Shown one piece after another: positions 9,217-53,500 of a stretch of 60,000 nucleotides of DNA (within the stretch, counting starts at the first letter, position 1; each line of letters begins with the position of its first letter). The notes beneath the pieces were generated by a model. It searched no databases and was not told the DNA's origin. It was given only the letters and a program-made list of their open reading frames with translations. Made by a program: the position numbers and the translations under genes. Source of the DNA: Membranipora membranacea (taxonomy: Eukaryota > Bryozoa > Gymnolaemata > Cheilostomatida > Membraniporidae); assembly GCA_914767715.1 (NCBI GenBank), contig OU612065.1, positions 29,266,001 to 29,326,000 on the forward strand, in the 5' to 3' direction.

Positions 9217-12200
9217 ATGATAACTGGTAATTATACAGAGGACTTTGAAGATGTGACAGTCACGGAAAGTCTGGACAATCCTACAGTAAGTAGCATTAAC
9301 TTGAATTAGAGACATTGATTTGAGAGGTAGGGGTGACTTACAACAAATGCAGTCATAACGGAACAGTTGACGGCGTCAACACTGTCAAGTGTTGTCAGGA
9401 ACAACAAAGCACTGTTCCCCAACATAAATTTGGGAGAAGTCAAGAACCTTGGCTATCCTCCACAGCAGAATTAAAGCATTTAATGCAAAAAAAGTAAAAA
9501 TGATAGGTGGGTTTAATGAAAAAGTATTGCCAACTGATCTAAATTTGGCTTATTGACACATGAACGACACATGAGTGACACATGGTGCCATATGCTGACA
9601 TATGGGTGACACATGGGTGACACATGAGTGACACATGAGTCTCACAATTTTCTTTCTTTTTCTTTTGATACAGGAAGACAATTATAGTGATGATGACACA
9701 ATAAGGGAATCGGTCAATAACAAACCTGCCAATTCCAGTAAACATATCTCTAAAGGTAAACCTACAAATAAGAGGAAGACCCAGCAGTCTGTAGTGGATA
9801 ATACTGAGAGCGATGAGGATAATGATGAGACTATTAGTGATCAAGTTATCTTATCTCTCAAAGATGTGTCTGTGAGTATATCTCTCTGTGGGGTTAGCTT
9901 GTTATTGGATGATTGTTTTAGAGGAGTTTGTCTGTCAATGATTCTAATTACATATGTAAGAGATAGTTTATTATAATGTAAGATTACTCACTCTCTAATG
10001 ATGGAAAAGGTCTAATGGCCTTCTACATCACCTAACCTGTCTGTAGCGAGCTTGCAGGACTATTTCTGCAATGCTAATGGCAAGATGAGACCCCTTACTC
10101 CACAATGTAACATGTCACATATTTTAAACTCAAGCGGTAACACTCCTTCACAAGCCATAGTAGGAAAATCAAAATAATGTCTTTCTCCATAGAATATCCG
10201 TATATCAATTAGACAGCAAGCTTGATTGGAATTTTTCAATGTATATCTTCCTAAAAGACCTTATTATTTTATGTTCATGGCAAACATGAGCGGATTGTGT
10301 TTGCAAACAAAATAACAGTCGTACTTTTCTGAACTTTTAATTCCTGTAATAAATGTTCTACATAAGTGAATTTCATTGTTGTGCCTTTGAGTGACATACC
10401 TATCGCTGTCCTGTTCGTAAAGCTGCATGTCAACAACAGGAACAAAATATTGACATTTCATTCATTCTTTTTTTTTCACCATGAAGAAACTACGTAAAAG
10501 CCTGGAGTTGAGTAAGCTGGTTCGTGAGAGTATCTGCCAAGATACGGTGAGTGATGTACTTACTCTAAAATATCACTTCAAGAACAGAACACAAACTAGG
10601 AGAGTCTCAATTTATAACAGTGATGGAAATATTTCTCTTGGACATTTATCTTCAATTAAAGAGAGATTTGTCCCCTCTACCAAAATATAATCATACTCTT
10701 TTGACTTTAGAGGCAGCCTCTCTGTCAAAATTTGCTTCGATGCATTTTATAATCACTTTTGAGGTTGTATATGCGTCAAAATTAGATAGATGTGAATTAT
10801 TGAAAATATTCTTCGATGTGTAAAGTACATCCACTCACCAATAGGTATGTATATGGAAAATGCTGAACTATGTCAGCGTAACACACAAGGTTCGGTTATT
10901 ACGCCGTATGATGTAGTCTGTATCACATAAGCTTGTTGACGCTTAGGGATATAGACTATCAGGATGGACCACTAGCAATTCAGAACGCTATCAGCTAATG
11001 TCCCACAATAATGGTTGAATATCGCAAAAAGTTATCCAGGCAAAGTTTGACAACTCTTTCGTATCTGCTGTTGACCTAGTATCCATTATAATATCTGGTG
11101 TTGTGTTGAATAGTACAACTAAACTGTGTATTAACATGTATTAACAGGACGAGTCAGATCTCGAAGAAGAGATAGATGATGTCATAGCTTCTACAGATAT
11201 GCTCTCTGCTGGTGATACGATAGTACTGGAGTTTGCTCCTCTCAAATCTAATCGGACACCTATACCTACCACACAAAGATGTAAGTTATATACCTACCAC
11301 ACAAAGATGTTAGTTATATACCTATGGCACAAAGATGTAAGTTATATACCTACCGCACAAAGATGTAAGTTATATACCTACCACACAAAGATGTAAGTTA
11401 TATATCTACGGCACAAAGATGTAATTTATAAACCTACCACTCAAAGATGTATGTTATATACCTACCACACAAAGATGTAAGTTATATACCTACTGCATAA
11501 AGATGTAAGTTAAATACCTACCGCACAAAGATGTAAGTTATATACCTACCACACAAAGATGTAAGTTATATACCTACTACTCAAAGATGTAAGTAACAAA
11601 CCTACCACTCAAAGATGTAAATTATATACCTACCGCACAAAGATGTGAGTAATATACCTACTGCACAAAGATGTAAGTTATATACCTACCGCACAAAGAT
11701 GTAAGTAATAAACCTACCACTCAAAGATGTATGTTATATACCTACCACACAAAGATGTAAGTTATATACCTACTGCATAAATATGTAAGTTAAATACCTA
11801 CCGCACAAAGATGTAAGTTATATACCTACCACTCAGAGATGTAAGTTATATACCTACCGCACAAAGATGTAAGTTATATACCTACTGCATAAAGATGTAA
11901 GTTATATACCTACTGCATAAAGATGTAAGTTAAATACCTACCGCACAAAGATGTAAGTTAAATACCTCCCGCACAAAGATGTAAAGTATATACCTACCAC
12001 TCAAAGATGTAAGTTATATACCTACTGCATAAAGATGTAAGTTATATACCTACTGCATAAAGATGTAAGTTAAATACCTACCGCACAAAGATGTAAGTTA
12101 TATACCTACTGCACAAAGATGTAAGTAATAAACCTACCACTCAAAGATGTAAGTTATATACCTACTGCATAAAGATGTAAGTTATATACCTACTGCATAA

Positions 12201-50500: not shown

Positions 50501-53500
50501 CAAGGTAAGTACTCAGAATCCAACGCAGGGGAAGTTGCTGTACTTTGAAACTAGAGTGCTACTGACTCCATCAAAGTTTGAATCTGAACACTTAGACCAA
50601 AGACAGATGCTATTGTTTCGCTTCTGCCTGTCAAACTTTGGCTCTGTCACAATTCGAAGAAATGCAAGCAAAACTTACATACACATCACATGATGAACTT
50701 TCCTGCTAGTATTGTGAGTGAGCTGAGCAATTGTAACTTTTGATCATCAAACTGTCAAAAAACAAGTGGATAGTACATCTCAACCATACCGCTTCACAGT
50801 GCCCATCACCCCTCACCAGGCATCAAATGTAAATTAAATTAAATAAGTGAAATATTTGAAACGAAATCCAGAATGACTTTTCTTTGCTCTTTGTATCTGA
50901 CACTCACTCTCATGGTTTTCTATACAGGAGTGACACACAGACATTTATCAGATCACATGTCCGAGCTTGTGGAGACAACCCTCAATGATCTGGAGCAGAG
51001 TAAATGTATCAGTATAGAGGATGACATCGATACCTCACCCCTCAATCTGGGTAAGCAATGATTATACATTCTTACACTATTAATAGAATTATTTCATGGG
51101 CTTCAAGCTGACCAGCATTTTCAAACTGATTGATACTATATTTCAGTGTGTTCTATTACTGTTAATTTGTGGTGGGCTCATTTTTTAGCAACCTTTGGCT
51201 TCTTGTAATGTCAGGGCTAGCTCAAATAGGGGGGTTTGTCAATCAATATCCAAAATTTCATCTCTTGTATTTACATCCAGTGTAGATACCGAAGCCAGAC
51301 TTAAATTTTAGAATCAATTGTGCTCTAATATCTCACTGGAAATAGTCTATATAATAATAATTAATCGTTTAAATATTATAACCTAATCGAGACCTGTTAA
51401 TTTACAGGTATGATTGCTGCCTATTATTACATCAACTATACAACTATCGAGCTGTTCAGCATGTCACTGAATGCTAAGACAAAGACTAAGGGACTGATTG
51501 AGATTATCAGTAACGCCGCTGAGTATGAAGGGATACTTATCAGGCACAATGAGGACGGTCTTCTCAAACAGGTGAGATCATGGGATGAGTCCTAGCTACT
51601 AGTGTGCAGAGTGAAATTGCTAGCTACAGTATTCTTTACTCCTTAGAATTTAGATATGATTATAGTGCCAAACACCTACAGCAAAGCATTGTTTGCTCTG
51701 ATCAACGAGTGTACTCCCATGTACAATTTGTAAATAACAATTTTACTAAGACCACAATGTAAAATTTCATTAGATTGTAGTATCAGAGATCACTAGATTG
51801 TAGATACAAGACTATATTATTGTTTGCAATTTTCATAATTTGGAGTTGTCTTCTAATTGAACTTTGTGTTCAGAGAGGTAACAACTCCCAAGTTAATTTG
51901 TTTATCGGAAATTAACTATGAACAGTCTACAATCTGGTGCAGAGACTGTGAACATTAATCAATTATTATTAGCCTATGACTACATTGAAAGCAAAAACTC
52001 AGCCCTGTTTGTATATTTCTGTTTGTAGTTGTCTGGTCGCCTACCTAACAAGCTGTCTAATGCTCGTTACAATGATCCACATGTCAAGACCAATCTGTTA
52101 GTGCAGGCGCACCTGTCCAGAATCCAACTATCCGCAGAGCTGCAGGCTGATACTGATATCATACTGGGTAGATCTCTCAGGCTTATTCAGGTATGTGTGA
52201 AAAACTATCTCTGCCAATATCTAGATCAAAATTGTAATCGTTATCTGTTCTCTTATATGCTCATTGTAATTGGTTCTAGCGATAAATTTTATTTATTATC
52301 TTGAGTCTGTAGTTATATGATATTTCATGAATTTTTTCAAAACAAATTCTGACTTCCTCCCACTCAGTTGCTTGTCTTTCTTAGTACAAATGTATTAATG
52401 TGTGCAGTATACTAATATATAGAACGCCCCTAAATTTCCAAACTCGCCAATATGTAATGTCATGACATGTATGTGTTTACAGGCATGTGTAGATGTTCTG
52501 AGTTCCAACGGGTGGCTGTCGCCAGCCCTCTGTGCTATGGAGCTTGCTCAGATGGTCACACAGGCTATGTGGGCTAAAGATTCATACCTCAAGCAACTGC
52601 CTCACTTTGGCAATGACATCATCAAGAGATGCAAAGAGAAGGTTGGTGTAGTTACTTCCACTCAGGCGTTGTTTCATTATTGTTTCTTTGGATACTAGTA
52701 AGAGTGCCATATAATATAAGGCATGTAACCGGATTGGTTATTATATGAAATATAATTTTTACTATTATACCATAACCAACTCCCAGATGCAAAAATATAT
52801 TTTGTTTTCTCAATCAAGGCTGCTTGATTATAAGTATTGTGTCTCATGTCGGTGGTTGTATTGCTACATAGTATCTTGACATGGTGTTGATGAAAGTTTT
52901 TGATATATTCCTTTACAGGGTATTGACACAGTGTTCGATGTTATGGAGATGGAAGATGATGAACGTAACACATTACTGAAGCTTTCCGACGCTGAGATGG
53001 CTGAGGTCGCCAGGTTCTGTAACAGATATCCAAATATTGAGCTGCAGTATGAGGTCGAAGATAAGGATAGCATTACCAGGTAACATTGATTATCAAAATC
53101 TTAAGAACAAAAAAGTGTTTTAAGATTCAACATTGTGAATTGAGAACAGTAGTTTTAAATGGGTCTCGCAACATGGAGTGTCTGTAATAAATTACCTTCA
53201 TGCATGTAATGCAAGAAAAATTTGAGTCTGAACAATTTTACTCCAATCTTATTCTATCCAAATGATGTAATCACTATCAGAGCAATGAACTCCATGTGAG
53301 ATCATTGACAGGGTGGTAAAGTGGTAAGCCAATCAATGATTGCACCCCTTGATATGATGCCGACAGACGGTACCATCCTACCATTCCAGCAGACATTCTA
53401 CTGATTTTTTGTCCACTTTTGTAAGGTTGCGAGTACATACTGTTCGCATTATTCCGAGTTACATTTAGGATGCTTGACTACATCATTACTTTATATTACA

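Follow-up and report, generated by a model that had tools for sequence, protein, structure and literature searches.

Two neighbouring genes of the bryozoan Membranipora membranacea, KATNIP and SNRNP200, each carry a minisatellite whose repeat unit contains an exon-intron border. Both arrays lie in a stretch of 60,000 nucleotides analysed here as a whole (the window). With a probability of roughly 0.87 they are mirages, in which a short stretch crossing an exon-intron border was tandemly duplicated and the outermost splice site remained in use. Mirages, i.e. tandem repeats across exon-intron borders, are described for amphioxus (PMC3087553, PMC3902484). The structure recurs in further genes of the chromosome of M. 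membranacea that carries the two.

Gene content of the window

The G+C content of the window is 37.9%. The published assembly of M. membranacea is given as 339.4 Mb with 38% GC and a chromosome 1 of 41.07 Mb (PMC10290214). KATNIP and SNRNP200 are adjacent and both encoded on the plus strand (Table 1); beyond them, a minus-strand ORF of 206 amino acids is followed by a LINE-type retrotransposon. The SNRNP200 model obtained by spliced alignment to the Watersipora subatra protein comprises 2134 amino acids, is free of stops and contains 37 introns with a median length of 377 bp. For KATNIP, the model is uncertain for the exons before position 9215 and for some within 12716-18748. Among the matches listed, the bryozoan W. 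subatra is the closest relative of both genes, with 84% identity over the whole query for SNRNP200 (next named species at most 80%) and 63% identity over 67% of the query for KATNIP. A preliminary description of this DNA had mentioned minisatellites across exon-intron borders in amphioxus and regarded them as a possible hint at the taxon. The mention is correct as literature (PMC3087553, PMC3902484), but the hint was wrong. Branchiostoma shows 77-78% identity for SNRNP200 among the matches listed, compared to 84% for W. subatra, and amphioxus was rejected as the source.

The 206-amino-acid ORF (54425-55045), which to our eye resembles TMEM223, is 98% identical to an unnamed protein of a 1527-base contig and had no match in Pfam. 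The LINE-type ORF (56654-59392, minus strand) is unbroken over 912 amino acids and includes endonuclease and reverse transcriptase domains. At 2339-3059, a 143-bp unit is repeated five times (97% alike), and most borders between units show a stretch resembling CAGCA/GTGAGT. Since a peptide related to this array is also found in the ORF at 5629-5982, the array probably derives from a dispersed repeat.

Table 1. Features of the two window genes and of further arrays on chromosome 1
Feature	Position in the window or locus	Strand	Evidence
KATNIP (KIAA0556) gene, better-modelled part	9215..29820	+	Spliced alignment to Watersipora subatra katanin-interacting protein-like
KATNIP exon, last 20 nt opening unit 1 of array 1	11148..11280	+	Spliced alignment, unit table
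Array 1, 36 units of 28 bp	11261..12268	+	Tandem Repeats Finder, unit table
KATNIP intron, 1339 bp, mostly array 1	11281..12619	+	Spliced alignment
SNRNP200 (Brr2) gene	32514..54169	+	Spliced alignment to Watersipora subatra protein
SNRNP200 exon ending ...NYYNLQG, last 31 nt opening unit 1 of array 2	49358..49511	+	Spliced alignment
Array 2, 28 full units (36 or 37 bp) and 13-14 nt of a further unit	49481..50523 (or 50524)	+	Tandem Repeats Finder, unit table
SNRNP200 intron holding array 2, 1416 bp	49512..50927	+	Spliced alignment
LRR protein gene, array across apparent donor	L022		Pfam supports LRR gene
SMYD5-like gene (presumed), array across apparent donor	L025		Pfam, sub-threshold SET match only
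DNA ligase-like gene, array across apparent donor	L030		Pfam profile through the junction, 147.7 bits
Rabaptin-like gene, array across apparent donor	L031		Pfam Rab5-bind through the junction, 61.4 bits
CACHD1-like gene (presumed), array across apparent donor	L032		Pfam, no match
Arrays antisense in introns of opposite-strand genes	L024, L026, L027		Direction from ORFs
Array antisense in intron of NOMO-like gene, ending 5 nt from likely acceptor	L029		Pfam supports NOMO-like gene

Anatomy of the two arrays

The presence of splice-donor minisatellites in two neighbouring genes, as reported in the preliminary description, was confirmed by Tandem Repeats Finder and spliced alignment. The unit tables reproduced its unit lengths (28 versus 36-37 bp), and the end it gave for array 2 (50523/4) is correct. 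Its statement that both arrays begin at the 5' splice site and spread into the intron stands for the spread, while the starts lie 20 and 31 nt inside the exons. In 2/2 window arrays the exon-intron border is located inside the repeat unit, and the protein models assign the outermost copy to the gene and place the later copies in the intron. Unit 1 is equal or near-equal to the consensus in the window arrays, and an exclusion of boundary copies was not seen there.

In KATNIP, spliced alignment to the W. subatra protein places the exon end at 11280 in phase 1. The first unit straddles the donor and consists of 20 exonic nt and GTAAGTTA, GTAAGT following immediately after the exonic part. Array 1 is free of indels across its 36 units, and the donor GT is intact in all of them. 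Changes were counted in 8/216 positions of the donor columns, never affecting GT, compared to 59/720 positions of the exonic columns. The gene model joins across the array without insertion relative to Watersipora, and protein conservation at the junction is weak. This poorly conserved exon end does not allow the first copy of array 1 to be read as the oldest.

The SNRNP200 exon ends at 49511, likewise in phase 1 and directly followed by GTAAGT, and unit 1 of array 2 straddles this donor. Its full units are 37 bp (22 units) or 36 bp (6 units) in length, and the donor G is lost in 2/28 of them. With 1416 bp, the intron holding the array exceeds the second-longest intron of the gene (589 bp). 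A block of approximately 330 bp is duplicated within the array (units 10-18 and 19-27), which fits unequal exchange. Here, too, the model joins across the array without insertion relative to Watersipora, and protein conservation at the junction is high. An 11-residue peptide at the exon end is identical in Watersipora, which most likely makes the first copy the ancestral one, from which the remaining units would have been copied. By eye, the units of the two arrays share nothing beyond GTAAGT, as previously described, and an independent origin of both arrays is supported.

Copying and use of the donors

Among the cases seen in Membranipora, the stretch presumably duplicated measures 16-57 bp across the border. 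Slippage or unequal exchange would presumably generate extra copies of the exon end together with its donor. The 5'-most copy would still close the true exon, and each later copy would become part of the intron. With the protein unaltered, the array would be free to grow and to be homogenised. Acceptor arrays would represent the mirror image, with the 3'-most copy as the working one.

Judging from the protein models, splicing in vivo probably occurs at the outermost site. In all eight donor arrays examined (the two in the window and six others), a stop is met at most 113 nt past the first donor, and in 7/8 no later copy yields an open in-frame exon. This fits the earlier proposal of selection tolerating repeats only in places where a working first donor is retained. 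The exception is KATNIP, where the fourth copy would give an exon 84 nt longer, still in frame and stop-free, and might conceivably serve as a donor. The intronic part of the unit amounts to 5-13 nt when the starts set by Tandem Repeats Finder are used and to 5-25 nt with exact matching. In 5/8 donor arrays, exact matching assigns the larger share of the founding unit to the exon.

Further arrays on chromosome 1

Twelve further GTAAGT arrays were grouped by hand from the matches listed for C1:27,698-1,373,707, an array-rich region, and their flanks were inspected. Among the matches listed, five of these arrays lie across an apparent donor, four are antisense and three (L023, L028 and L033) are without gene assignment. 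The twelve arrays carry differing units. The names SMYD5 and CACHD1 for two of the genes are our assumption, and the gene direction taken for L024, L026 and L027 is in part presumed as well. Since 4/12 arrays are antisense in introns, a GTAAGT within an array is not necessarily a donor.

The DNA ligase-like gene (L038, L030 and L039; C1:461900-468500) carries arrays at two different exons: a donor array of 77 copies of 16 bp and a likely acceptor array. In the latter, which is truncated by the limit of the sequence stretch, a 57-bp unit is present at least 36 times, and its last copy comprises 32 exonic nt together with the probable acceptor TTTCTCAG/GTTGAGG. With at least one large array at an acceptor, the process is not donor-specific. 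In the CACHD1-like gene, an additional array (31 bp, three copies) is found at a likely GTAACT donor. In the first 180 kb of the chromosome (C1:20000-180000), approximately 2-6 tandem arrays per 6 kb were counted at loci each chosen for holding one, compared to five in the 200 kb sampled evenly from C1. Long satellite arrays with a period of 334-335 bp are present at two loci of the C1 sample (L017 and L021), one of which (L017) is filled end to end.

Abundance and position of GTAAGT arrays

The whole genome (339,339,785 bp) was searched for three GTAAGT words separated by gaps of 15-45 bases, with the reversed word TGAATG as control. GTAAGT triplets gave 6180 matches (2591 forward and 3589 reverse) compared to 1155 (347 and 808) for the control. 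This corresponds to a 5.3-fold excess, or 7.2-fold when corrected for word frequency, measured against one control word and in matches that are clumped and count units rather than arrays. As a single word, GTAAGT is rarer than TGAATG (119 versus 160 in 180 kb of sampled DNA, comprising 18 of 20 stretches with two satellite-rich ones left out), so that word frequency fails to explain the 5.3-fold excess. These counts, with their one control word, hint at a genuine excess of GTAAGT arrays. Scaled to the genome, a baseline from the even sample averaged 300 triplet starts per word and 103 for words of equal G+C; it is very rough, a single locus supplying 541/799 starts. From the 6180 matches and approximately eight listed rows per array, several hundred GTAAGT arrays are estimated for the 339 Mb. 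This number predicts less than one array in 200 kb, and the window is thus richer than average. Sampling C1 evenly (20 x 10 kb, 200 kb in all) yielded five arrays (period at least 10, at least 3 copies). With both strands considered, GTRAGT occurs in only one of them, a 335-bp satellite.

Of the nine gene-resolved arrays, five are located at donors, compared to 16/35 genic GTAAGT words outside arrays in the two window genes that are true donors (P = 0.40); antisense positions account for 4/9 and 12/35, respectively. The donor fraction of 5/9 was therefore rejected as proof of a bias, 16/35 genic words being true donors anyway. Approximately 4/17 arrays not chosen by word straddle a splice site versus approximately two expected (P = 0.14, in a hand count that includes the window's two). 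A codon-based coding score, calculated before the first GTAAGT and too weak to be decisive, ranked 6/12 arrays with the best 27% of 118 control words. The two window genes served as its training set, which included the SNRNP200 donors used for checking.

For 60 modelled introns, taken from the window without the KATNIP introns before 11281 and six more with doubtful splice sites, a founding unit placed anywhere spans the donor with a probability of 0.049 (28 bp) or 0.069 (37 bp). The chance of both window arrays lying at donors is approximately 0.003, and that of two of the window's four intronic arrays (period at least 10, at least 8 copies) approximately 0.02. The preliminary description had considered two such cases hard to credit to chance. 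The figures are suggestive but post hoc, the two arrays having been the reason for choosing the window. In a scan of the same introns for duplications at donors and acceptors, only the two known donors matched strongly, at 29 and 30 of 30 bases. All other donors reached at most 19 matching bases of 30 and the best acceptor 20, so KATNIP and SNRNP200 hold no sea of degenerate mirages. Taken together, a positional bias of arrays toward splice borders is suggested only. The genome-wide process proposed in the preliminary description is upheld as far as recurrence at other genes is concerned; templating of the duplication at donors is not shown, with a 5.3-fold word excess over one control word and a donor fraction at chance level.

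Explanations considered

Minisatellites might be random in introns, the window having been noticed for two that happen to cross donors. Such a coincidence is plausible, if somewhat short of an even chance: after selection of the window the null probabilities of 0.003-0.02 are modest, GTRAGT is rare among the even-sample arrays, and the fraction of loci at donors is what chance predicts. It does not readily account for the 5.3-fold word excess and the repeated independent cases in other genes. The excess, obtained with a word that is singly the rarer one, would be expected if donor sites seeded tandem duplication (e.g. via DNA breaks coupled to transcription or splicing), with arrays over-represented at 5' splice sites genome-wide; the differing units of the 12 listed arrays and the mostly exonic founding units point in the same direction. 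We regard donor seeding as tentative, as the excess is measured in clumped units against one control word, neither the donor nor the antisense fraction departs from that of genic words, the arrays not chosen by word straddle splice sites at a rate above expectation with P = 0.14 only, and acceptors carry arrays too. With similar reserve, splice borders in general may be hot spots founding minisatellites, in which case hundreds of Membranipora genes would have donor arrays or mirrored acceptor arrays.

Selection for redundant splice-site copies, the arrays being kept because they improve splicing, appears improbable. The lower variation of the donor columns in array 1 would agree with it, but homogenisation also predicts low variation and the copies are not independent; moreover, use of a later copy shifts the frame or meets a stop in 7/8 cases. 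Least probable is an expansion or misassembly of the repeats in the assembly. Repeats are error-prone, and an amphioxus mirage is reported to have been misassembled in a draft genome (PMC3087553), whereas the 66-fold HiFi reads described for M. membranacea (PMC10290214) should span 1-kb arrays, and variants are ordered among the units of both arrays. The reading as mirages, in which the outermost site is used, is preferred for the two window arrays.

Implications and comparison with known systems

The findings would carry mirages beyond individual genes of amphioxus into a distant animal phylum, where the arrays are larger and one of them lies in the gene of a spliceosomal helicase, SNRNP200. 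The arrays can be regarded as natural experiments on intron growth and on the choice of the spliceosome among tens of near-identical sites. Should splice borders be hot spots, the spliceosome would have to single out the outermost site from dozens of nearly identical ones, and to do so in many genes simultaneously. Proof of a positional bias would make it testable in one sequenced genome whether tandem duplication is linked to splicing or transcription.

A literature search combining bryozoan, minisatellite and intron found no paper in the collection searched, and the titles listed on mirages and on minisatellites near splice sites included no bryozoan. The model of tandem duplication at AGGT reportedly creates a new intron inside an exon, whereas in Membranipora existing introns grow. 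Common to both is that a segment carrying a splice signal is duplicated, intron gain being attributed to tandem genomic duplication of AGGT-containing segments (PMC4974935). Internal tandem repeats reported to alter gene structure in human segmental duplications (PMC2812944) likewise touch gene structure.

The Membranipora arrays belong to the known mirage kind, and the structure itself is already published for amphioxus. Described there from both 5' and 3' borders, mirages have units measuring 150-160 bp in globin genes and 10-72 bp in Adh3 (PMC3087553); PGBD5 was added later as a mirage gene, with TnC cited (PMC3902484). Amphioxus mirages (Adh3, BflGb6, BflGb9, TnC and PGBD5) and Membranipora arrays are alike in spanning the border, in occurring at 5' or 3' sites and in affecting unrelated genes with unrelated units. 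For amphioxus, normal mRNA is reported where tested (PMC3087553, PMC3902484), while the Membranipora arrays are known here from genomic DNA and protein models. Apart from their occurrence in Bryozoa, the latter differ in copy number, the two window arrays having 36 and 28 copies and other donor arrays approximately 5-77, compared to 6 and 3 copies in two haplotypes of BflGb6 (PMC3087553).
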